From Halomonas alkalisoli (lineage in GTDB: Bacteria > Pseudomonadota > Gammaproteobacteria > Pseudomonadales > Halomonadaceae): a stretch of DNA of 64,000 nucleotides. The stretch lies in NCBI RefSeq assembly GCF_021412585.1, contig NZ_JAKCMI010000018.1, positions 1 to 64,000 of the forward strand, written 5' to 3'. Of the stretch, positions 41,833 through 53,529 are shown piece by piece. Every line of letters starts with the position of its first letter. Positions within the stretch are counted from its first letter, which is position 1. Position numbers and translations under genes: made by a program. Under the pieces are notes generated by a model. That model ran no database searches, had not been told where the DNA came from, and saw nothing but the letters and a program-made list of their open reading frames with translations.

Positions 41833-42858
41833 ATGACCGCCCAGACACCGCGTCGCCCCACCATCCTTGAAGTGGCCCGGGAAGCCGGCGCCTCGAAGAC
41901 CAGCGTGTCGCGCTATTTCGGCGATGAGCGCGATCGCCTGTCCCGAGGGCTGCAGGGCCGGATCGCCTCAGCTGCCAAGCGCCTGGGCTACCGCCCCAAC
42001 CAGATGGCCAGGAGCCTCAAGGGTGGCCATTCGCGCCTGATCGGCATGCTGGTGGCCGATATCCGCAACCCCTTCTCGGTCGCGGTGATGCACGGCGTCG
42101 AACAGGCCTGCCGGGCAAGCGGCTATTCGCTGCTGGCCTGCAACACCGACAACGACCCTGCCCAGGAGAGCGCTCATCTGTCACTGCTGGCGTCGTATCG
42201 GGTCGAAGGGTTGGTGATCAATGCCACGGGCAGCCCCCATGGCGCCCTGCAGGCACTCATCGACCAGGGCACGCCGCTGGTACTGCTCGACCGGGAAGTG
42301 GACCGGGTCGCCGCCGACGTGGTGGGACTCGACAATCCCAGGGCGATCGATATGGCCCTGGAGCACCTTGCCGAGCGCGGCTATCGCGAGCTGCTCTACA
42401 TCACCGAACCGCCCGAGGAAGCCAGTCCTCGCCAGCGCCGCATGGCGCGCTTCCGGGCCAGGCTCGCTGACTTCGGCATGACCGGTGAATCGCTTTGCCT
42501 CCCGCTGACGGATGACACGGCGACGCCCCACGCCGCCATCGCTGCTTTCCTGAACCGGCCGGGGGTGGCACCGAAGGCCCTCCTTTGCGCCAACGGCAAG
42601 ATCACCCTTGCCGTGACGCGCACCCTGCAAGCACTGGGTGTCCGGCTCGGTGAGACGGGACTGATGGGCATCGACGAGCTGGAATGGTGCGAACTGGTCG
42701 CACCGGGCATCACCACCCTGGCCCAACCCACCGAGGCGATCGGCAGGGCGGCGGTGGAGTGCCTGATGCAGCGCCGCGAGCCCCAGCACCACCCATCGCC
42801 ACCACGCCACATCCACTACCAACCTGTGCTGATACCCCGAGGCTCTACCCAGCGCTGA
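41833..42858 (+). CDS. LacI-family transcriptional regulator (PtxS/GntR/KdgR-like)
   Basis: This 341-residue repressor has an N-terminal LacI helix-turn-helix (TILEVAREAGASKTSVSRYF, residues about 10-29), a hinge helix, and a periplasmic-binding-protein-like ligand domain (LIGMLVADIRNPFSVAVMHG). It precedes a PfkB kinase and a 2-hydroxyacid dehydrogenase, the same partner types as Pseudomonas ptxS-kgu. Matching operator palindromes lie before it (41803) and before the kinase (42898). The effector may be 2-ketogluconate, its phosphate or KDG. A link with the sugar cluster upstream is unlikely. Confidence 0.85.
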   Translation: MTAQTPRRPTILEVAREAGASKTSVSRYFGDERDRLSRGLQGRIASAAKRLGYRPNQMARSLKGGHSRLIGMLVADIRNPFSVAVMHGVEQACRASGYSLLACNTDNDPAQESAHLSLLASYRVEGLVINATGSPHGALQALIDQGTPLVLLDREVDRVAADVVGLDNPRAIDMALEHLAERGYRELLYITEPPEEASPRQRRMARFRARLADFGMTGESLCLPLTDDTATPHAAIAAFLNRPGVAPKALLCANGKITLAVTRTLQALGVRLGETGLMGIDELEWCELVAPGITTLAQPTEAIGRAAVECLMQRREPQHHPSPPRHIHYQPVLIPRGSTQR

Positions 42859-42897
42859 CAAACCTCCCACCCCAGGGCTCATGGGGCAGCAAGCAGT

Positions 42898-42911
42898 TGG
42901 GAACGTTCCCA
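42898..42911. promoter_or_regulatory. Perfect 14-bp LacI-type operator before the kinase gene
   Basis: TGGGAACGTTCCCA is a perfect palindrome with the central CG typical of LacI-family operators. It stands between the regulator stop and the kinase start (43004). It is the best candidate site for the adjacent LacI-family regulator. Confidence 0.78.
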
Positions 42912-43003
42912 CTCATTCTTGCGGACGACATCCCGCAAAGCCGACAGCCGATTTGAACGCCAGCCCCGCTGGTACACTCAGGGAACAAGCAGAGGAGAAC
43001 GGC

Positions 43004-43978
43004 ATGACAACCTCCCCCCCTTCACCGGAGATCCTCGCTTTCGGCGAGGCCATGGCCCTGTTCGTTGCCGACGCCCCCGGGGCGCTGGACGAGGTGGAGC
43101 ACTTCCAGCGCCGCATTGCCGGCGCCGACACCAATGTCGCTATCGGCCTGGCCCGCCTGGGGTTTCGGGTCGGCTGGCTGAGCCGGGTCGGGGCCGACAG
43201 CTTCGGCCGCTACATCCGCCGCACCCTCGAGGCCGAGGACCTGGACTGCCGCCACCTGCTCGACGACCCGGACCACGCCACCGGACTGATGTTCAAGGAG
43301 CGAGCCGTCGGCGGCGCCGACCCACAGGTCGAATACTTCCGCCGCAACAGCGCAGCCAGCCACCTGTCGCCCACCGACGCCGCCCAGGTGGACTTTGCCG
43401 GCCTGCGGCACCTGCATGCGACCGGCATTCCCCCGGCGGTCTCCGCCAGCTGCCGCGAACTCTCGCTGCACATGCTGACCCAGGCCCGCAACGCCAACGC
43501 CAGCATCTCCTTCGACCCCAACCTGCGTCCCGGGCTCTGGTCCAGCGAGACCGAGATGTGCCAGACCCTGAACGACATGGCGGCCCAGTCCGACTGGGTG
43601 CTGCCCGGCCTGGCCGAGGGACGTCGTCTCACCGGCCTGGAGACTCCCCACGACATCGCCGGTTACTACCTGGAGCGCGGCGCTCGCGCCGTTATCATCA
43701 AGCTCGGCCCCCAGGGCGGCTACTACCGGGGGCATCTGGGCGGCAAGGAGGAGAGTTTTACCGTCCCCGGCTTCACGGTGAGCGAAGTGGTCGATACGGT
43801 AGGCGCAGGCGATGGCTTTGCGGTGGGCGTGGTCAGCGCGCTGCTCGAGGGTCGGTCGCCTCGTGAGGCGGTACGCCGCGGCAACCTGATAGGTGCCCAG
43901 GCGGTGCAGGTCATCGGCGACATGGAGGGGTTGCCACATCGTTCACGCCTGGATGAGTTGGAAGCCAACCTGAATTGA
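43004..43978 (+). CDS. PfkB-family sugar (acid) kinase, 2-ketogluconate or KDG kinase
   Basis: This 324-residue ribokinase-family enzyme begins ILAFGEAMALFVADAPG, has the substrate-side RRIAGADTNVAIGLARLG, and ends with the PfkB signature DTVGAGDGFAVGVVSAL (catalytic Asp near residue 267). Overall it resembles KguK and KdgK kinases. The neighbouring 2-hydroxyacid dehydrogenase and PtxS-like repressor favour 2-ketogluconate kinase. The mannonate operon 4 kb away would need a 2-keto-3-deoxygluconate kinase, so KdgK is a serious alternative. ATG 43004 follows AGAGGAG. The downstream gene starts ten bases after its stop. Confidence 0.82.
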   Translation: MTTSPPSPEILAFGEAMALFVADAPGALDEVEHFQRRIAGADTNVAIGLARLGFRVGWLSRVGADSFGRYIRRTLEAEDLDCRHLLDDPDHATGLMFKERAVGGADPQVEYFRRNSAASHLSPTDAAQVDFAGLRHLHATGIPPAVSASCRELSLHMLTQARNANASISFDPNLRPGLWSSETEMCQTLNDMAAQSDWVLPGLAEGRRLTGLETPHDIAGYYLERGARAVIIKLGPQGGYYRGHLGGKEESFTVPGFTVSEVVDTVGAGDGFAVGVVSALLEGRSPREAVRRGNLIGAQAVQVIGDMEGLPHRSRLDELEANLN

Positions 43979-43988
43979 GGAGAGCCCC

Positions 43989-44969
43989 ATGCCCAAGCGT
44001 ATCCTGGCCTATGGCCGCCTGAACGACGATCAGCTTGCCGAGCTGGCCCGTGACTTCGAGGTCGACGTTTTCGAGGGACTCGACCCGGCGAACGACCCGG
44101 CCTTTCGCACCGCCCTGAAGGGCGCCCACGGCCTGATCGGCTCAAGCCTCATCATCACGCCGGACCTGCTCGACGAGGCGCAGGAACTGGAGATCATCGC
44201 CAGCATCTCGGTGGGCTATGACAACTATCCGGTCGACGAACTGACCCGCCGCGGCATCCTGCTCTGCAATACTCCGGATGTGCTCACCGAAACCACCGCC
44301 GATACCGGCTTCGCCCTGATCATGGCCACGGCCCGCCGCGTGGTGGAACTCGCCGAGCTGGTCAAGCGCGGTGAGTGGCAGGCAAGCATTGGGCCTGCTC
44401 ACTTCGGCTGCGACGTGCACGGCAAGACCCTCGGCATGATCGGCTTCGGCCGTATCGGTGCCGCCGTGGCCCGCCGTGGTGCCCTGGGCTTCGGCATGAA
44501 AGTACTCTACTCAAACGCCTCCCCCAAGACTGAGCTGGAAAAGGAGCTCGGCGCCGAGCGCCGAGAGCTGGACGAACTGCTCGCCGAAGCGGATTTCGTC
44601 TGCGTGACGGTGCCGCTCACGCCCGAGACCCATCACCTGATCGGCGCCCGGGAGTTCGGCCTGATGAAACGCTCGGCGTGTTTCGTCAATATCGCCCGCG
44701 GCAAGGTGGTCAACGAGGCCGCCTTGATCGGCGCCCTGGAGACGGGTGAGATCCGCGCCGCCGGCCTCGACGTCTTCGAACAGGAGCCTCTCTCGACCGA
44801 ATCGCCACTGCCCCACATGGCCAACGTGGTGGCCCTGCCGCATATCGGCTCGGCAACCCACGAAACCCGCACCGCCATGGCCCAGCGCGCCGTGGACAAC
44901 ATCACACGGGCGCTCAAGGGCCAGCGTCCCATCAGCCTGGTCAACGAGGAGGCCTGGCGTCGAGCGTGA
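43989..44969 (+). CDS. D-2-hydroxyacid dehydrogenase (2-ketogluconate reductase-like)
   Basis: This 326-residue NAD(P)-dependent dehydrogenase has the dinucleotide loop GMIGFGRIGAA near residue 150, the catalytic Arg region VNIARGKVVNE near 235, and the His-containing ALPHIGSATHETR near 285. It belongs to the GhrB/TkrA/KguD branch that reduces 2-ketogluconate, its 6-phosphate, glyoxylate or hydroxypyruvate. Coupled to the kinase upstream, it could turn 2-keto-6-phosphogluconate into 6-phosphogluconate for the Entner-Doudoroff route. Confidence 0.85.
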   Translation: MPKRILAYGRLNDDQLAELARDFEVDVFEGLDPANDPAFRTALKGAHGLIGSSLIITPDLLDEAQELEIIASISVGYDNYPVDELTRRGILLCNTPDVLTETTADTGFALIMATARRVVELAELVKRGEWQASIGPAHFGCDVHGKTLGMIGFGRIGAAVARRGALGFGMKVLYSNASPKTELEKELGAERRELDELLAEADFVCVTVPLTPETHHLIGAREFGLMKRSACFVNIARGKVVNEAALIGALETGEIRAAGLDVFEQEPLSTESPLPHMANVVALPHIGSATHETRTAMAQRAVDNITRALKGQRPISLVNEEAWRRA

Positions 44970-45094
44970 CGGCTGACTCATGAGCTCAGGGAAGCTGAAC
45001 CCGACATGATTTGTTGTAGCGCAGCATAGGGAGGCCCACACTAACGGGATAGCGGCCCTCGGTCGCTCCCGACTCCTGACGAAGAGGCCAGTCC

Positions 45095-45448
45095 ATGAAA
45101 AGCCCGACCCATTTTCCTATCCTGCCACAGACCCCCGCTGCAATGATGGATGTCTGGAAACTGGGAGTCATGGCCTTCGAACTCTGGTCGACCTCGGCCT
45201 CAACCATCGCCCTGCGCAATAATCTATGGCAGACCCAGGCTCCCAACAGCGCCAGCATGATCAAGGAGAACCAGCGAATGGTGAGCGAAAAGCTCGAAGC
45301 CAGCCTGGAAACCGGCGTCGAGATCCAGAAAGCCATGCTGGGCATGGCATTCGGCCAGAGCACCCCCTGGTGGGTCACGGGTCGCCGCACCCTGACGCCC
45401 TATCATCGCCGCAGCAGCGCCAACTCTCGCCGGCTTTCCCGAGGCTGA
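45095..45448 (+). CDS. Small phasin-like protein
   Basis: This 117-residue protein is helical and has no signal peptide. It contains the sequence ENQRMVSEKLEASLETGVEI in the middle and a basic Arg/Ser-rich tail (SSANSRRLSRG). Similar small proteins with an ENxRMVSEK block and an NxRRL end in alphaproteobacteria have been called antifreeze or phasin-like. A polyhydroxyalkanoate granule role would suit a Halomonas but is only inferred. GAGG stands ahead of the ATG. Confidence 0.55.
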   Translation: MKSPTHFPILPQTPAAMMDVWKLGVMAFELWSTSASTIALRNNLWQTQAPNSASMIKENQRMVSEKLEASLETGVEIQKAMLGMAFGQSTPWWVTGRRTLTPYHRRSSANSRRLSRG

Positions 45449-45625
45449 GGGCAGCCGGGGCACCTCCCGGCGAGCGACTTGCCACACCGGGTATCAGCTT
45501 GGCACCCAACAGCCACATCATCCAACCGGGTGAGCCGCAGGCGGCCCCGCCGGTCGAGCCATAGGGATCACCGCAGGTGATTCGCCTGCTAAACTCTGCG
45601 GCTATCCCACTCGCCCGGAGCCGTC

Positions 45626-47014
45626 ATGCCTGCCGCAGCCGCCAAGTCGTTGCCCACGCCTCGCCACTGGATATCTCTCGTGGCCATCGTGGGAGTCACG
45701 CTTTTCCTGCTGGGGATGCCCGCGGCGCCGGTCATGGTTCGGGCGGGGGCGGTAATCGGGCTCTGTATCGGGCTCTGGGCGACCGGCTGGCTGCCGCAGT
45801 GGCTGACCGCACTGGTCTTCTTCACGCTCTGCACCCTTGCCGGCGTGGCACCGGCGGAGACGGTATTCGCCGGCTTCGGCTCGGCGGCAACCTGGCTGGT
45901 CTTCGCCGGCCTGATCATCGGCGCGGCGATCCAGTTCACAGGGCTCGGCACCACGCTGGCCCAAGGGGTCGGCCCCTGGCTCGCCGGCTCCTACCGCAAG
46001 GCGCTCGTCGGTGTCATCGTGCTGGGGCTGGTGATGGCATTCTTCATGCCCTCGGGCATGGGCCGGATTCTGCTGATGGTCCCCATTCTAACCACACTGG
46101 CCGATCACCTCGGCTATGCCCAGGGGGAGCGGGCCCGGACCGGGCTGATACTCGGCGGCATCATGGGTACCTTCCTGCCTACCTACGCCATCCTTCCCGC
46201 CAATGTGCCCAACAACGTCTTGATGGGGGCCGCGGAAGCGGTACTGGGCACGCCGCCCACCTACAGCGACTACCTGCTGCTGCACTTTCCGGTGCTGGGC
46301 CTGCTCAAGACACTGCTGCTGATCGGGGTCATGCTGTGGCTCTTCCCGGGTCAGGCACCGGCGCAGGCCCGAGAGCCGGCGCCATCCTTGCATCTCGCTG
46401 CACCCGAGCGCTGGCTGGCAGCGCTATTGTCGGTGGCGGTCCTGCTATGGATGACCGACGCCTGGCACGGGATCTCGCCCGCCTGGGTCGGCATGGGAGT
46501 GGCACTGGTCTGCCTCTTTCCCGGTAGCCGGCTGATGGGCGAGAAGCCACTGCAGTCGATCAGCTTCGACTCCTTCATCTATGTGGCGGGCATCGTCAGC
46601 CTCGGCGCACTGGCCTACCAGAGTGGATTGGGCACCCTGGTGGCGGGCGGCCTGCTATCGGCGCTGCCCCTGCGCGAGGCCAGCGATGCTGCCGCCTTTG
46701 GCATGCTCTCGGCGCTCGCCATGCTGCTGGGCACCCTGGTCACCCTGCCGGGTATTCCCGCCATCCTGACTCCCATGGCGCCAGGGCTCGCCGAGATGAC
46801 CGGCTGGTCGCCGGAGGCGGTCTACATGACCCAGGTGGTGGGGTTCTCCACGGTGCTGCTGCCGTACCAGGCGCCACCGCTGATCGTCGGCATCCTGGCG
46901 GCACGCATTTCGCTGAGGGAAACCGCCCGCCTCTGCCTGGTCACCGCGCTGCTCAGCGTGGTGTTGCTGTGGCCACTGGACTACTTCTGGTGGCAGTGGC
47001 TGGGGTGGCTATAG
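45626..47014 (+). CDS. SLC13/DASS-family anion transporter
   Basis: This 462-residue protein has about 12 helices. It shows the family-type segments AATWLVFAGLIIGAAIQFTG and FFMPSGMGRILLMVPIL, and the second-half GTLVTLPGIPAILTPMAP, where Na+ and substrate sites sit in DASS proteins. It probably moves dicarboxylate, citrate or another anion. No catabolic gene is adjacent to suggest the substrate. GGAG precedes the ATG. Confidence 0.82.
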   Translation: MPAAAAKSLPTPRHWISLVAIVGVTLFLLGMPAAPVMVRAGAVIGLCIGLWATGWLPQWLTALVFFTLCTLAGVAPAETVFAGFGSAATWLVFAGLIIGAAIQFTGLGTTLAQGVGPWLAGSYRKALVGVIVLGLVMAFFMPSGMGRILLMVPILTTLADHLGYAQGERARTGLILGGIMGTFLPTYAILPANVPNNVLMGAAEAVLGTPPTYSDYLLLHFPVLGLLKTLLLIGVMLWLFPGQAPAQAREPAPSLHLAAPERWLAALLSVAVLLWMTDAWHGISPAWVGMGVALVCLFPGSRLMGEKPLQSISFDSFIYVAGIVSLGALAYQSGLGTLVAGGLLSALPLREASDAAAFGMLSALAMLLGTLVTLPGIPAILTPMAPGLAEMTGWSPEAVYMTQVVGFSTVLLPYQAPPLIVGILAARISLRETARLCLVTALLSVVLLWPLDYFWWQWLGWL

Positions 47015-47085
47015 GGAAACACTGCATAAATGTCTGCGCTTCCATAGCACCTGAATGTGACCTGGTGTGTCTGACACACAAAGAA

Positions 47086-47110
47086 CCGCCCCCGGCATGA
47101 CCGGGGGCGG
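47086..47110 (-). terminator. Terminator between SLC13 gene and acidic protein gene
   Basis: CCGCCCCCGG (47086-47095), loop CATGA, CCGGGGGCGG (47101-47110) form a perfect 10-bp stem. On the minus strand TTCTTTG follows, so it fits an intrinsic terminator for the acidic protein gene; it may also stop the convergent transporter transcript. Confidence 0.7.
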
Positions 47111-47199
47111 GTGAGGCGGATGATGCTATCGCATCATCCTTGAGGAGACGACACCGCCCGTCCTTGGGCAGCGACCGCCATCCCTGGCAGTATCAGGGC

Positions 47200-47592
47200 T
47201 TACCACTCCTGATCGTCTTCCTCATCCTCTTCCCACTCTTCCTCTTCGTTCTCTTCTTCCCACGCGTCGGTGGTTTCGTCTTCCCACTCGTCATCCGAGC
47301 CGAAATCCGCATCGGCGCCAGCGCCTGCACCTGCTTCAGCACCGGTCTCACCTGCGCCGAAATCGGTATCAGCGCCTGCTTCAGCACCGGCCTCACCAGC
47401 ACCGTAACCGGTATCGGCACCTGCACCTGCACCCATGTCGGCGTCAGCGCCAGCTTCGGGAGCGGTCTGCTCCGGCACGATACCTTGCGCGTCCTCTTCA
47501 TCGTGGAATTCGGCAAATGCCAGCGGGCTGGCGGTCAGGCCAAAAGTGATACCGACAATGCCGAGTTTCTTGAGAAATTCCTTGGACATCAT
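47200..47592 (-). CDS. Exported, extremely acidic low-complexity protein
   Basis: I do not recognise a family. The 130-residue product has a signal peptide (residues 1-27, ending AFA). The mature part has no Lys or Arg at all. It has two 15-residue repeats of the form GADTxxGAGExGAEA, further Gly-Ala-Asp segments, and a C terminus of Glu/Asp with four spaced Trp (EW, AW, EW, EW). GGAGG precedes the ATG at a good distance and a terminator follows, so it looks like a real gene. It could be a periplasmic or surface polyanion that binds cations or water in a salty habitat, but this is a guess. Confidence 0.75.
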   Translation of the reverse strand: MMSKEFLKKLGIVGITFGLTASPLAFAEFHDEEDAQGIVPEQTAPEAGADADMGAGAGADTGYGAGEAGAEAGADTDFGAGETGAEAGAGAGADADFGSDDEWEDETTDAWEEENEEEEWEEDEEDDQEW

Positions 47593-47892
47593 GTTCGTCC
47601 CTCCAATGGGTCAGAACTTGTGTTTCCATTTCAAGCCGTTAGGCTTCGCTCGTCGTACCGGAAATCCGCTTGCCAGACTCTCTAGTAGCAGGACTTACCG
47701 GCTTGTCTTGCTCACCCAGGGTATTGCAGGGAGCGGGCCAACCCATGCCAGATTTAAAAACATTCCTTCTATTTCATAGTGTTGAAAGAATCGCTCTCGT
47801 TCCCTTCTCCGCCAGAAAGCCTAAGAAAAGTGGAGCGTTCTGGCACATGGGCCGGGAAGGCGCAGTCGCAGGCCCGAAGTCGCCCCGGGCTG
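47593..47892. other. 300-bp gap between uxuA and the acidic protein gene
   Basis: Both flanking genes are on the minus strand. The gap should hold the promoter of the acidic protein gene and the end of the uxu operon. I see AT-rich bases around 47750-47810 but no confident promoter hexamers, no strong terminator and no small gene. Confidence 0.4.
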
Positions 47893-49071
47893 TCAGTCGG
47901 TCAGGCGACGCACCGCCTGTTCCACGCCACGCAGTTCGGCCAGGCCGCGCAGCCGACCGTAGAGGGGGTAGCCCGGTGCGGTGGCGCGCTGCTGATCATC
48001 GAGAAGTTGGTGGCCATGGTCGGGACGCATCGGCAGCCGTGCCCCGCCCTGCCGCTCGCGGCGACGCTCCTCCGCCACCAGGGCCTGGATCACCGCCACC
48101 ATATCGACATCGCCATCCAGGTGAGGGGCCTCGAAGAAGGAGCGCGGATCCGACGCCTCGCGGCGGGTCGAGCGCAGATGCACGAAATGGATCCGTGGCC
48201 CGAAGCGGCTCGCCATATCGGCCAGGTCGATGTCCGCTCGCACCCCGTAGGAACCGGTGCACAGCGTCAGGCCGTTGGCCGGGCTGGGCACGGTATCGAG
48301 GATCCACTGGGCGTCCTCCGGCGTGGAGACCACCCGCGGCAGCCCGAGCATGGGGCGCGGCGGGTCATCGGGATGGATCGCCATGCGGATGCCGACCTCC
48401 TCGGCCACCGGGATCACCGCATCCAGGAAATACGCCAGATGTTCACGCAGCCGGTCGGCATCGATCCCGGCGTAGGCCGTCAGCACCTCACGGAATTGGG
48501 CCAGGGTGTAGCCCTCCTCGGCGCCGGGCAGGCCGGCGATCAGGGTATCGACCAGCCTGTCGCGGTCGGCCTGGCCAAGGGTTTCGAGATAGTCCCGGGC
48601 CTCGCGCTGCTCCACATCGCTGTAGTCGTTCTCGGCGCCGGGGCGCGCCAGCAGATACAGATCGAAGGCGGCGAAGGCGACCTGATCGAAGCGTAGCGCC
48701 AGGGCCCCATCGGGCAGGTGATAGCGCAAGTCGGTGCGAGTCCAGTCCAGCACCGGCATGAAGTTGTAGCAGACGGTATCGATGCCGCAGGCCGCCAGGT
48801 TGCGCAGGGTCTGGCAGTAGTTGGCAATCAGCCCGTCGCGCGCCGCCAGCCCCTGCTTGATCGCCTCGTGCACCGGCACGCTCTCCACCACCGACCAGGT
48901 CAGGCCGGCGGACTGGATCATCGCCTTGCGCTCGTCGATCGCCGCAGGAGACCACACCTCGCCATTGGGTATCTCGTGCAGCGCGGTGACGATGCCGGTG
49001 GCACCGGTCTGGCGAATCTCGTCGAGGCGAATGGGGTCCTTCGGGCCGAACCAGCGCCAGGTATGCTCCAT
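47893..49071 (-). CDS. uxuA: Mannonate dehydratase (UxuA family)
   Basis: This 392-residue cytosolic enzyme dehydrates D-mannonate to 2-keto-3-deoxygluconate. Family landmarks are [14 protein letters not shown] and [15 protein letters not shown] at the start, the His/Asp metal region [10 protein letters not shown] near residue 240, and [11 protein letters not shown] near 300. GGAG precedes the ATG. It is the last gene of the minus-strand uronate operon. A second, structurally unrelated mannonate dehydratase (ManD type) is encoded at the operon start. Confidence 0.95.
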
Positions 49072-49086
49072 GAAAATCTCCTTGTG

Positions 49087-50556
49087 TCAGTCTCGCACCA
49101 AGGCGGAAAGCGCCCCGGCAAGCCCCTCTCGTGTCAGTATCCGATAGGCATCGACCACCGCTGTGACAAAGGACGGCTGTCGAGCCAACGCAGGCGGTAT
49201 CACGTCGTCCATAGCCAGGAAGGCATCGACCAGCGCCTCGGCATCGTCGGCGTGCCGGGCATGCAGGTCGGCAAAGCGCGCGGCCAGCGGATCGTCGACC
49301 GGGTATTGGGCCCCGTGCAGGTCTTGGCCCGCGGTGTAGCGGACCCAGGCGGCCACACCCAGCGCCGTGCAGGGCAGCGCCTCGCCGACCTCGATCCGTG
49401 CCAGGGCACCCTGCAGCCAGCGCTGGGGCAGCTTCTGGCTGCCGTCCATGGCGATCTGTTGCAGGCGGTGGCGCAGGCTGTCATTGGCGAAGCGCGCCAG
49501 CAGCGAGTCGCCGTAGGCGACCAGGTCGGTGCCCGCGGGCATCGCCAGGGTGGGAGCGGCCTCCTCGAGCATATAGCGCCGCAGTAGCGCACTGAGATCC
49601 TCGCGGCTGACCGCATCGAATACCGTCTCGATGCCTTCCAGGGCACCCAGGTAGGCCAGCAGCGAGTGGCTGCCATTGAGCATGCGCAGCTTCATGGTCT
49701 CGAACGGCACGACATCCTCGACCATCTCCACCCCGTCAGCCTCCCAGCCGGGGCGCCCCTGGGGGAAGTCATCCTCCACCACCCACTGGCTGAACGCCTC
49801 CCCCACCACCGCGTTGGGATCCTCGATACCCAGCTCAACGAGGCGCACGTGATCCTCTGCAGTCATGGCCGGCACGATGCGATCGACCATGCTGCAGGGA
49901 AAAGCCACCTCGCGCTCGATCCAGGCGGCCAGTTCGACATCGCGACAGGCAGCGAGCTTTACCACGGCATGGCGGGTGCGCCCGCCGTTGTCCGGCATGT
50001 TGTCGCAGCAGAGCACCGTAAAGGGTGCAATGCCAAGTTCACGCCGCCGCGCCAGCGCCTCCGCCAGGATGCCTGGCGCGGTGCGTGGCGTGGTAGGCGC
50101 GGCGATGTCCGCGGCGATCATGGGATCATCGGCGAGCAGCTCGCCGCTGGCCGGGTTGAGGAAGTAGCCTTTCTCGGTGACGGTCAGGGTAACAATACGC
50201 ACCCCGGGATCCGCCATCCGCGCCAGCAACGGCGCCAGGTCGCGTCCCCAGTGGCCGTCTGCGCCTCGCCCGGAGAACAGCGCCTCTTCGATTACCCCAA
50301 TCTCGCGCAGGGCGACGGTCTGGCTGTCGGCGTACTCGGCGACATGGTAGCGATGACCGGCCGCCGCCAGGCCGTCCACCAGGACCACATTGCCGCGCAG
50401 GTTGGCGCTGCAGATACCCCAGGTGTCATCGCTGCTGCGCTGGCGGTAGCGCTCCAGATAGACCGCCTGGTGGGCACGATGGAAGGCTCCCAGGCCGAGA
50501 TGGACGATGCCGATGGCCCCACGCCGTGGCGCCGCCGGGTAACGGGTGATGGACAT
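49087..50556 (-). CDS. uxuB: Fructuronate reductase / mannitol dehydrogenase family (UxuB)
   Basis: This 489-residue NAD-dependent enzyme of the long-chain polyol dehydrogenase family has IGIVHLGLGAFHRAHQAVY at the N terminus, the middle-region VTLTVTEKGY, and KLRMLNGSHSLLAYLG near residue 290. Next to uxuA it probably reduces fructuronate to mannonate. Of two adjacent ATG codons I prefer 50556, five bases from the AGGAG; 50559 is only two bases from it. Confidence 0.92.
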   Translation of the reverse strand: MSITRYPAAPRRGAIGIVHLGLGAFHRAHQAVYLERYRQRSSDDTWGICSANLRGNVVLVDGLAAAGHRYHVAEYADSQTVALREIGVIEEALFSGRGADGHWGRDLAPLLARMADPGVRIVTLTVTEKGYFLNPASGELLADDPMIAADIAAPTTPRTAPGILAEALARRRELGIAPFTVLCCDNMPDNGGRTRHAVVKLAACRDVELAAWIEREVAFPCSMVDRIVPAMTAEDHVRLVELGIEDPNAVVGEAFSQWVVEDDFPQGRPGWEADGVEMVEDVVPFETMKLRMLNGSHSLLAYLGALEGIETVFDAVSREDLSALLRRYMLEEAAPTLAMPAGTDLVAYGDSLLARFANDSLRHRLQQIAMDGSQKLPQRWLQGALARIEVGEALPCTALGVAAWVRYTAGQDLHGAQYPVDDPLAARFADLHARHADDAEALVDAFLAMDDVIPPALARQPSFVTAVVDAYRILTREGLAGALSALVRD

Positions 50557-50575
50557 CATCTCTCCTTATGGTGGG

Positions 50576-51856
50576 TCATTCGCCCATGATCAGGGTTGGC
50601 AGCCACAGCGATACCGCCGGCACATAGGAGACCAGCAGCAGCACGCCGATATTGCAGATCAGGAACGGCACGATGGCCCGGGCCACGGTAAGCATCGGCA
50701 GCTTGCCGATGCCGGCGACGACGAACAGGCAGACGCCCACCGGCGGCGTGGTCAGGCCGATCATCAGGTTGAGCACGGCCATGACGGCGAAGTGCACCGG
50801 GTCGAGGCCGACACCGGTGGCGACACCGAGCAGCGCCGGGAACAGGATGATCAGCGCGGCGATGGTCTCCATGAAGGCGCCGACGAACAGCAGAATCAGG
50901 TTGAGGATCAGGATCACAATGATCGGGTTCTCGCTGATCGACAGGATCAGGGCGGCGATCATCTGCGGCACCTGCTCGCTGGTCAGGATCCAGCCGAACA
51001 GATTGGCCAGCCCCACCAGCAGCAGCAGCGCCGAGGAGGTGAGCACCGTATCGCTGAGGATGCCCGGCAGCTTGCGCCAGGAGAGCCCCTTATAGACGTA
51101 CATGCCTACCACCAGCGCATAGAGGCTGGCGACGATGGATGCCTCGGTGGGCGTGAAGAAACCACCGATGATGCCGTAGAGGATGATCACCGTCATCAGC
51201 AGCGCCCAGAAGGCGGTGCGCCCCTCGCGCAGCAGCTCCATGAAGGTGGCCCGCTTGCCCCTGGGATAGCCACGCCGCACGGCGAGAATATAGACCGTGA
51301 TCATCATCGCCAGGCCCAGCAGAAGGCCGGGGATGGCGCCGGCCAGGAACATCCGCCCCACCGAGACGCCGGAGAGCGAACCGGCGATGATCATCGGCAC
51401 GCTGGGCGGGATGATCGGCCCCACCGTGGAGGAGGCGGCGGTGACCGCGGCGGCGAAGGGCTTGTCGTAGCCGGAGCGGGCCATGCCGGGAATCATCACC
51501 GAACCGATGCTCGCCGAGTCGGCCACCGCGGTACCGGAGATGCCGCCGAAGATCATCGAGCCGCCCACGTTGGCCAGCCCCAGGCCGCCGCGGATATGGC
51601 CCAGCAGGGCGTTGGAGAAGCGGATGATGTGCTCGGTGATGTTGCCGACATTCATCAGGTTGCCGGCCAGCACGAAGCCGGGAATGCACAGCAGCACGAA
51701 GGTATCGATGCCGGCGTACATGCGCTGCGGCACGATGGTCAGCGAAATGCCCTCCAGCAGCAGATAGACCAGCGATGCGATACCCAGGGCGAAGGCGATC
51801 GGCAGGCCAACCACCAGCAGCACCAGAAAGGTGACGAACAGCAGGATGACTTCCAT
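50576..51856 (-). CDS. dctM: TRAP transporter large permease subunit (DctM)
   Basis: This 426-residue DctM protein has about 12 helices with the conserved GGSMIFGGISGTAVADSAS near residue 115 and IIPPSVPMIIAG near 148. With the small subunit and the binding protein it forms a sodium-driven importer, here probably for a hexuronate or aldonate because it sits inside the uxu/man operon. The start codon follows the dctQ stop directly. Confidence 0.94.
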   Translation of the reverse strand: MEVILLFVTFLVLLVVGLPIAFALGIASLVYLLLEGISLTIVPQRMYAGIDTFVLLCIPGFVLAGNLMNVGNITEHIIRFSNALLGHIRGGLGLANVGGSMIFGGISGTAVADSASIGSVMIPGMARSGYDKPFAAAVTAASSTVGPIIPPSVPMIIAGSLSGVSVGRMFLAGAIPGLLLGLAMMITVYILAVRRGYPRGKRATFMELLREGRTAFWALLMTVIILYGIIGGFFTPTEASIVASLYALVVGMYVYKGLSWRKLPGILSDTVLTSSALLLLVGLANLFGWILTSEQVPQMIAALILSISENPIIVILILNLILLFVGAFMETIAALIILFPALLGVATGVGLDPVHFAVMAVLNLMIGLTTPPVGVCLFVVAGIGKLPMLTVARAIVPFLICNIGVLLLVSYVPAVSLWLPTLIMGE

Positions 51857-52444
51857 TCAGCGTGCCTCTGCATCGTTGTCGGCGGGCCGGCGCAGCATGG
51901 CGACCAGGCCCTCGAGAAAACCGATGGCGCTGTAGACCAGCAGCAGCAGGAACAACACCACGGTGGAGAAGAAGATGTAGAGCATGGGTACCTTGAGGGT
52001 CGGCGAGGTCTGCCAGGCACCGTTCTCGGCGTACTGCCAGGCATAGGGCAGTACGATCCAGGCAAAGCCGCCGATCAGCAGGCACACCAGGGCCTGGTAG
52101 CCGGCCCGGGCACGGGGCCCGAGGTAGTGATGAAACAGTTCGACGTTGACGTTGCGGTGACGGCGCAGCACCACCCCCGCCGAGAGCGCCACCATGTAGA
52201 CGAACAGGTAGCGCGACAGCTCCTCGGTCCAGGCCATCGGGAACGGCAGGAACAGGCGGCCGGATATCTGCAGCAGCACGGTGCCGGCAATGGCCACCAG
52301 GGCCACCACCGCCAAGCCGGTGAAGAGCGCATCGATCCAGCCGATCAGGCGCCCCACCGGCCCCTGGAAGGTGGGCACCACCGAGAGGGTGTCGAGGCTG
52401 TCGATGGCCTCCCGCTCGAGGGCCTTGTGTTCGGGTGTCGTCAT
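51857..52444 (-). CDS. dctQ: TRAP transporter small permease subunit (DctQ)
   Basis: This 195-residue protein has four helices and the family segment PMAWTEELSRYLFVYMVALSAG in its centre. I start at ATG 52444, preceded by AGGGG; an earlier ATG at 52495 would add residues lacking family similarity. It assembles with the large permease encoded immediately downstream. Confidence 0.9.
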   Translation of the reverse strand: MTTPEHKALEREAIDSLDTLSVVPTFQGPVGRLIGWIDALFTGLAVVALVAIAGTVLLQISGRLFLPFPMAWTEELSRYLFVYMVALSAGVVLRRHRNVNVELFHHYLGPRARAGYQALVCLLIGGFAWIVLPYAWQYAENGAWQTSPTLKVPMLYIFFSTVVLFLLLLVYSAIGFLEGLVAMLRRPADNDAEAR

Positions 52445-52491
52445 TGGCGTGCCCCTCACGGGGCGGGCACCGCAGTGCCCGCCCCCATGGC

Positions 52492-53460
52492 TCACAGGTC
52501 CTGGATGGCGTCGAACAGCGCACGCTGCTCGTCATCCAGCGCTTCCAGCACCGCCGGCCGCGCCTTCTCGGCGAAGGCCTCGATATCGACCTCGACGAAC
52601 TCCATGCCGCGGTCGGTCAGGGCCTGCTCGAGACGCTGCTGGTCCTCGTCGAACAGCTCGGCCTGGTACTCCTGCATCACCGCGGCGGCATCGAAGACCA
52701 CCTGCTGCAGGTCGTCGGGCATGCTCTCCAGGGTATTGCGGCCGATCACCACATAGATCCAGCTGCGCACATGGCCGGTGAGGTTCACGTAGTCCTGCAC
52801 CTCATAGAAGCTGGCGCTCTCGATCAGGCTGAGCGGGTTTTCCTGGGCCTGGATGGTGTTCTGCTGCAGGGCGGTGAACACCTCGCTGAAGGCCATCGGC
52901 GTCGGGCGTGCGCCCAGCGCTTCCCAGGTATCGACGAACAGCGGCACATTGGGCACCCGCAGGCGCATGCCGTCCAGGTCGTCGGGATGCTCGATGCGGC
53001 GATTGGAGGTCAGCTCGCGGGGGCCGCGCTCGAACCAGGCCAGCGGCACCAGGTTGGCCCGTTCGATGATCTGCGCCTCGATCTCCTCGCCGATCTCGCC
53101 GCTCACCGCGGCATGCAGGTGTTCGGCGTCGCGGAACGCATAGGGCACCGCCATCATCGCCGCCTTGGGCGCCCAGTTCTGCAGGCTCTCCCCGGTGATG
53201 GTCATCTCGGCGGTACCCAGCTGGATGCTGTTGATCACATCCATCTCGCTGCCGAGCTGCTCGTTGGGATAGATGCGCACCTCGATGCGACCGTCGGAGT
53301 TGGCCTCGACCTCCTCCTTGAACTTCTCGGCGGCCTGGTGCCAGATATTCTGCTCGTTGGCCAGGTGGCCGAAGCGCAGCGTGAAGTCGGCGGACAGGGC
53401 GGCCTGGCTGCCTATCAGGGCGGCGCCGATCATCGCACCGGTGATGAGTCGCTTGATCAT
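52492..53460 (-). CDS. dctP: TRAP transporter solute-binding protein (DctP)
   Basis: This 322-residue periplasmic protein has a signal peptide (residues 1-24, ending LSA). It begins its mature part DFTLRFGHLANEQN and has the ligand-carboxylate-binding Arg region LRVPNVPLFVDTW near residue 150 and NPLSLIESASFYEVQDY near 195. It delivers a sugar acid to the DctQM permease. ATG 53460 follows AGGAG by nine bases. Confidence 0.93.
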   Translation of the reverse strand: MIKRLITGAMIGAALIGSQAALSADFTLRFGHLANEQNIWHQAAEKFKEEVEANSDGRIEVRIYPNEQLGSEMDVINSIQLGTAEMTITGESLQNWAPKAAMMAVPYAFRDAEHLHAAVSGEIGEEIEAQIIERANLVPLAWFERGPRELTSNRRIEHPDDLDGMRLRVPNVPLFVDTWEALGARPTPMAFSEVFTALQQNTIQAQENPLSLIESASFYEVQDYVNLTGHVRSWIYVVIGRNTLESMPDDLQQVVFDAAAVMQEYQAELFDEDQQRLEQALTDRGMEFVEVDIEAFAEKARPAVLEALDDEQRALFDAIQDL

Positions 53461-53529
53461 GACGTGAATCTCCTGCACATGCTGTTGTGAGTTATGGGTG
53501 TGCTATGGCATTGGCTATGCCGTTGGTCC

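Follow-up and report, generated by a model that had tools for sequence, protein, structure and literature searches.

Based on the comparisons reported here, we suggest that a family of exported polyanionic proteins in the Halomonadaceae is placed under a sigma-54 circuit of its own. The family, its promoter, its enhancer, their co-occurrence with a histidine kinase and the purifying selection on the coding sequence all emerge from comparison between genomes, and it is highly probable from these data that kinase, regulator, enhancer, sigma-54 promoter and the polyanion set constitute a dedicated regulon. The explanation as a whole, i.e. a dedicated Halomonadaceae sigma-54 circuit that exports polyanions, we regard as evenly poised. 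None of the matches listed in our literature searches, which left subscription papers mostly outside their scope, described the family or the circuit, nor do the available portions of PMC9850573, PMC4987338, PMC12889724, PMC1569441 and PMC9006882. As far as these searches reach, the polyanion outputs are new while the design of the circuit is of a known kind.

The polyanion and its family

The window, i.e. the whole stretch of 64,000 nucleotides of Halomonas alkalisoli contig NZ_JAKCMI010000018.1 analysed here, carries the polyanion gene on its minus strand (47200..47592; 130 amino acids). The protein begins with a Sec signal peptide, MMSKEFLKKLGIVGITFGLTASPLAFA (residues 1-27; 47512..47592, minus strand), with an AxA-type cleavage site; it was assigned by reading the sequence, corresponds to invariant alignment columns and is the most conserved region of the family. 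The signal peptide supports export. The mature part has 103 residues, including 24 Glu and 16 Asp, no Lys, no Arg and a single His at residue 30, giving a computed net charge of about -40 at pH 7 in a mass of 10.6 kDa. It contains a Gly-Ala-Asp-rich repeat region (residues 46-98; 47299..47457, minus strand), the length of which differs among relatives, and a Glu/Asp tail (residues 99-130; 47203..47298, minus strand) with Trp at positions 103, 111, 120 and 130 that ends in EEDDQEW. Thus, the earlier note's description of an exported polyanion lacking Lys and Arg, with one His, Gly-Ala-Asp repeats and an acidic tail with four Trp, holds in every part. Its claim that the gene has its own ribosome site and terminator is borne out by GGAGGG six bases 5' of the ATG (47599..47604, minus strand) and by an intrinsic-terminator-like hairpin of 11 pairs with the tail TTCTTTGTGT (47086..47110, minus strand), terminator-like sites numbering two in the 1-kb stretch around the gene, the second of them inside the gene, against 0.8 expected from shuffles.

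The mature part has a dN/dS of 0.14-0.18 in comparison with three orthologues, which indicates purifying selection and, thus, that the reading frame is a protein-coding gene under constraint. No known protein family could be adopted as its identity, in agreement with the first reading of the DNA: Pfam, searched with E up to 1, gave no match to the protein and thus no RTX-type Ca2+-binding nonapeptide profile, and the sole NCBIfam match, YiaD (E 0.76), was far under its cut-off. An AlphaFold2 model built from 16 sequences had a mean pLDDT of 50 and a pTM of 0.15, and this low confidence fits with a disordered mature part.

The lack of basic residues goes beyond chance, as judged from the composition of the neighbours, the low probability of the event and its recurrence in relatives. 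Lys and Arg make up 3.7-11.7% of the residues encoded by eight neighbouring genes of the window (about 4% in two membrane proteins, 7.3% in an exported binding protein), and at 8-12% Lys plus Arg the probability that 103 residues contain neither is 2e-4 to 2e-6. Among 115 distinct family members, which are those from fetched loci and fewer than all matches, 88 lack Lys and Arg altogether beyond residue 27, and 101 contain no more than one such residue there. The 27 members outside the 88 have at least one, and three members from g23 genomes carry 8, 5 and 5, the enhancer described below being present for two of these three. Cys is absent from the mature part of all 115, and 79 end in Trp. Following an acidic run, this C-terminal Trp could be bound by a PDZ-type domain or another reader of C-termini.

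Homologues and variation in repeat number, both of which the earlier note had proposed looking for, were found. Homologues with intact signal peptides are encoded by many related species, which goes against one half of the refuting case that the note had set for itself. Window-type sequences at a permease-linked locus range from 115 to 151 amino acids (type assigned by eye), so that the number of repeats differs, and several of these sequences are adjoined by tandem copies that are shorter and of another type. Half of the genomes of the same genus (45/90, own genome included) matched in a search with the single sequence, and with a profile of 25 members (E 0.001) matches were obtained in 133 of the 275 Halomonadaceae genomes, spread over 11 of the 24 genera. 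In an order-wide sample of 390 genomes, all nine that matched were Halomonadaceae and none came from outside, and a scan of 84,980 species genomes with two peptide patterns returned at least 47 loci, all of which, among the matches listed, belong to Billgrantia, Halomonas, Franzmannia, Litchfieldella or Aidingimonas records. A plasmid-collection record, Halomonas sp. PA16-9, matches across 32% of the query.

The genome of the window has three family copies: the window gene, a second paralogue of 94 amino acids that adjoins an NADP-glutamate dehydrogenase gene, and a third of 178 amino acids with Asp-Pro repeats. The second paralogue also lies close downstream of 23S and 5S rRNA genes (L131:1-2497). 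By eye, the window gene is surrounded by a uronate-type catabolic cluster (41833-53478) with a LacI regulator, sugar kinase, dehydrogenase, UxuA-like protein, fructuronate reductase-like protein and TRAP transporter, and its flanks differ in many relatives. Across the family, the neighbours include uronate genes, glycolytic genes, polyamine- and betaine-type ABC transporters and glutamate dehydrogenase (names partly by eye). Because neighbours vary among loci, synteny says little about function, the kinase/regulator pair excepted, and we dismissed gene neighbourhood as a guide to function.

A shared sigma-54 promoter and enhancer

We found no sigma-70 promoter match in the 1-kb stretch around the polyanion gene and adopted instead a putative sigma-54 promoter, TTGGCCCGCTCCCTGCA (47725..47741, minus strand), with -24/-12 elements of the form GG-N10-GC. 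Located 108 bp upstream is a candidate enhancer, CATGTGCCAGAACGCTCCA (47831..47849, minus strand), for which the family-wide consensus is CATGTGYCA-N8-CA; this distance falls within the 80-150 bp that the available text of PMC4987338 gives for enhancers of sigma-54 regulons. The earlier note mentions neither this promoter nor the enhancer, the paralogues or the regulator. Scored with a constant ten-base gap between GG and GC and a threshold of 20 out of 24.5, 72 of 114 family upstream regions contain a sigma-54 promoter, against 4.0 expected from dinucleotide shuffles. Many of the other 42 belong to third-group members, in which a lipoprotein gene 5' of the family gene carries the promoter instead; in the 13 such operons listed, the enhancer core lies about 108 bp before the lipoprotein's promoter. 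The core, CACATG/CATGTG, is present in 72 of 74 promoter-bearing upstream regions, whereas 11.0 would be expected if random stretches taken from these loci are the measure. For the 56 of these 74 with printed positions, it is located between -107 and -120 in all but one (30/30 and 25/26), with clusters near -108 and near -118, i.e. one helical turn apart.

In the 4.87-Mb genome of the window, core plus promoter occurs three times and the control pattern not at all, these patterns having been adjusted after the family had been inspected. The three sites precede the window gene, the second paralogue and the operon of the lipoprotein and third paralogue. The first version of the pattern, which picked up two of the family loci together with one site elsewhere and had two control matches, was revised once the third-group promoters had been seen. 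The revised pattern was also tried as a family-wide marker and rejected as too loose and unspecific, since it matched 197 of 275 genomes, often in apparent coding sequence; the strict form was used instead. In this strict form, the pattern read backward gave 10 matches over the 275 genomes, and a version with the second half-site shifted by one base left six matching genomes, which serves as a level of chance.

The lipoprotein of the third-group operon has a signal peptide of another kind and no family match, and yet it shares the composition of the family: over 23 loci, these lipoproteins have 13 Lys or Arg in 2247 residues, 12 of them have none, and Asp and Glu make up about one third of residues. 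The sample comes from 40 regulator loci, of which 14 gave no lipoprotein by the filter (eight being short kinase-centred loci) and two were taken as duplicates; one of the 24 distinct lipoproteins, from L143, was excluded for its wrong frame. Because the filter set a minimum of 15% Asp/Glu and kept whichever candidate was most acidic, acidity was selected for, while the lack of Lys and Arg was not. Two g23 lipoproteins have no enhancer-promoter in front. We also observed a module, GFGEGTEPMPG (GFGEGTDPMPG in L205), both in g23 lipoproteins and near the C-terminus of a third-group family protein (L204:9181-9633, L205:9446-9922 and L132:5283-5819), as if modules had moved between the two genes; therefore, lipoproteins and third-group family proteins are not wholly independent.

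These observations bear on the null alternative, namely that the composition reflects ordinary drift in a halophile that exports acidic proteins anyway and that the polyanion has no special role. Acidity of envelope proteins is known in moderate halophiles (Oren 2005, as cited in PMC9006882), and the available text of PMC9006882 describes an excess of Asp and Glu in their exported proteins much as is seen here. However, in the polyanions basic residues are nearly absent, over 115 members, and no folded domain is predicted; moreover, they are under purifying selection, have a private enhancer and regulator, and have their composition in common with a lipoprotein that uses another signal peptide. 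We therefore consider drift very improbable.

Between promoter and start codon, the window gene has a predicted structured 5' leader (47593..47713, minus strand; its start inferred from the promoter) with a small hairpin around GAAGCC/GGCTT (47633-47647, minus strand) in the predicted fold. Covariation within the genus is weak: pairing is seen in 159 of 186 cells, where shuffles average 153 and 2 of 1000 shuffles reach the observed level. In g23 leaders, the first hairpin has an AGGA loop in three of five folded (L118, L122 and L126), while the L119 leader has AAGACG in this loop and that of L120 folds otherwise. Seven g23 loci have a further enhancer-promoter site with no family gene behind it and were fetched on that account (L194-L200; L194:2940-3181, for instance). 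There, a stretch of 176-402 nt contains no conserved open reading frame but conserved GGA-loop hairpins and a strong terminator, and both partners differ in 8 of its 31 predicted pairs. Rfam, queried with four of these seven loci, had no match, and a search of the window's genus (90 genomes) with an RNA model of the candidate, run without a positive control, gave no hit. The resemblance of this candidate small RNA to CsrB/RsmY-type CsrA sponges is a lead, not a result.

A histidine kinase and an NtrC-family regulator that travel with the family

In the genome of the window, the genes for a response regulator and a histidine kinase lie convergent to the third-group operon. By Pfam, the regulator comprises a receiver, a Sigma54_activat and an HTH_8 (Fis-type helix-turn-helix) domain, and the GAFTGA motif is readable in its sequence; the kinase has HAMP, HisKA and HATPase domains. 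A model of the kinase N-terminus, from nine close sequences (mean pLDDT 67), is a membrane-anchored alpha/beta domain with Cache/PDC sensors such as CitA and WalK as its best solved matches, which suggests that the kinase senses a small ligand or a condition of the envelope.

With presence scored at 66% identity or more, the kinase is found in 123 of 275 genomes, and eight further genomes have a relative of 41-43% identity. Family and kinase are both present in 118 genomes and both absent from 137, while 15 have only the family, six of these with family matches better than 1e-8, and five only the kinase (Fisher 1.7e-53); the association is also strong within each of two large genera and in the rest. 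Similarly, the strict enhancer-promoter pattern occurs in 116 of 123 kinase-positive genomes, leaving seven without a strict site, as opposed to 8 of 152 kinase-negative genomes (p 5e-58; counts tallied by hand from the table). Because the genomes are not phylogenetically independent, both p-values are inflated. The association does not come from synteny alone, since over 500 kb separate the kinase from the family genes in G219, the g23 genome that was checked. From co-occurrence and adjacency, we infer that this regulator is the one cognate to the family enhancer.

Four of the eight kinase-negative genomes with a strict site were inspected. In G004 and G013, the site adjoins a lipoprotein-like sequence, intact in G013 and apparently broken in G004, and no kinase was detected; G175 has a diverged kinase nearby and G154 nothing of that kind. 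The arrangement in G004 and G013 (L212 and L213) resembles a remnant of the circuit. G041 has no kinase, and the two members fetched from it have seven and at least six Lys or Arg and no sigma-54 site. That the charge rule relaxes once the switch is lost is only a hint, because the g23 members with 8, 5 and 5 basic residues come from kinase-positive genomes.

In a sister lineage, the switch appears to have another target. At all six loci fetched with the 41-43% relative of the kinase, in five of seven g9 genomes and in G175 (L222-L226 and L210), a diverged kinase/regulator pair adjoins an acyltransferase gene that has the core CATGTGTC and, after it, a strong sigma-54 promoter in front. The core is 114-117 bp upstream of the promoter in g9 and 100 bp in G175; G175 has the full enhancer consensus, while every g9 genome keeps the core alone. 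The acyltransferase is of the Acyl_transf_3 type in the two of six run against Pfam, the other four being alike by eye, and the NCBIfam matches, NolL-like in g9 and MdoC-like in G175, are under their cut-offs. Thus, core and regulator stay together even in loci in which a different envelope gene is the target.

An enhancer core before a gene that possibly acylates glycans would also suit a rather unlikely explanation, in which the polyanions are matrix proteins that, once outside the cell, would bind exopolysaccharide or Ca2+ in biofilms or flocs, like PepA, the RpoN-dependent PEP-CTERM protein that serves floc formation according to the available text of PMC9850573. The logic is the same, with a sigma-54/two-component circuit over small exported proteins: as described in the accessible portions of PMC1569441 and PMC9850573, the PEP-CTERM/PrsK-PrsR/RpoN system likewise consists of genes that stand alone behind long upstream regions, with an upstream motif in common and a sigma-54 promoter, its phylogenetic profile matches that of a transmembrane kinase and an NtrC-type regulator, and many exported proteins depend on one switch. 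However, PEP-CTERM proteins are defined by a C-terminal sorting domain, whereas here the N-terminal signal peptide is conserved and mature parts are poor in Lys and Arg. The PEP-CTERM motif and transmembrane stretch are absent from the window protein (no Pfam match; C-terminus EEDDQEW), an exosortase-type sorting signal being missing from a protein that ends DDQEW, and by eye no exopolysaccharide genes stood out in the 13 listed loci. The regulator scores 368.6 bits against PrsR (TIGR02915), under the cut-off of 502.6.

ZraP is thought to feed back on ZraSR. By analogy, the polyanion could be an accessory in metal handling or a chaperone with feedback on its own kinase, given that a polyanion partner is encoded in an operon adjoining a sigma-54 two-component pair and that ZraR and ZraS are among the best NCBIfam matches of regulator and kinase; the available text of PMC4987338 describes the same arrangement in enterobacteria, with a small exported partner alongside the pair. 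These equivalog models are not passed, the scores being far under cut-off (364.8 of 760 for ZraR and 169.7 of 479 for ZraS). Moreover, candidate metal-binding residues are few, with no Cys in any mature part and one His in the window protein, there is no ZraP-type or other Pfam match, and the paralogues are several and scattered. Altogether, we judge a ZraP-like role improbable.

A model for inducible envelope charge

In the model that we favour, a membrane-bound histidine kinase whose periplasmic sensor is of the Cache/PDC type would, in response to a signal, phosphorylate the NtrC-family response regulator. This regulator would bind upstream of the sigma-54 promoter, at the CATGTGYCA-N8-CA enhancer about 108 or 118 bp away, and turn on the polyanion set, i.e. 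three paralogues and the polyanionic lipoprotein in the genome of the window. The polyanions would be Sec-exported and intrinsically disordered and would act through bulk negative charge rather than through a fold or an active site. We lean slightly towards action by bulk charge, because two differently exported proteins under one switch have the same odd composition, with the caveat of the module shared in g23. By contrast, the conserved Trp at the C-terminus and the motif ENEEEEWE point to specific reading of some of the sequence, which counts against bulk charge.

Once exported, the polyanions may fill the periplasm or the outer surface with fixed charge that holds Na+, Mg2+, Ca2+, H+ or polyamines, and they would then be an inducible protein counterpart of anionic envelope polymers; that they hold counter-ions we propose tentatively, with somewhat more doubt than belief. 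Acidic wall polymers and the S-layer of alkaliphilic Bacillus are believed to retain cations under saline or alkaline conditions. SlpA and teichuronopeptide of these bacteria resemble the polyanions in providing a fixed negative surface charge. However, they are large or non-ribosomal polymers of Gram-positive cells, whereas here small ribosomal proteins are placed under a sigma-54 switch. A charge of about -40 in 10.6 kDa, spaced Trp, an export route and an inducible-type promoter would equip the protein as a decoy for cationic antimicrobial peptides or other polycations. However, high salt screens electrostatic interactions, and we consider such a decoy quite improbable. Returning to fixed charge held by the envelope, we speculate, while thinking it unlikely in this full form, that the circuit is an envelope-charge control system, in which a Cache-type kinase and a sigma-54 activator produce a set of gene-encoded, disordered polyelectrolytes free of Lys and Arg as an adjustable fixed-charge layer and one lineage has added a CsrA-sponge RNA to relieve the translational repression of these leaders.

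Trypsin releases no peptides from a mature protein that lacks both Lys and Arg, and standard proteomics can easily overlook such a protein; this could be part of the reason why the polyanions have gone undescribed. With the data reported here, an odd orphan protein becomes an experimentally open system with a sensor, an activator, an enhancer and few outputs in cultivable halophiles. If these outputs work by charge alone, they would represent a natural inducible polyelectrolyte and would provide a clean test of how the Gram-negative envelope handles fixed charge and counter-ions at high salt or pH.
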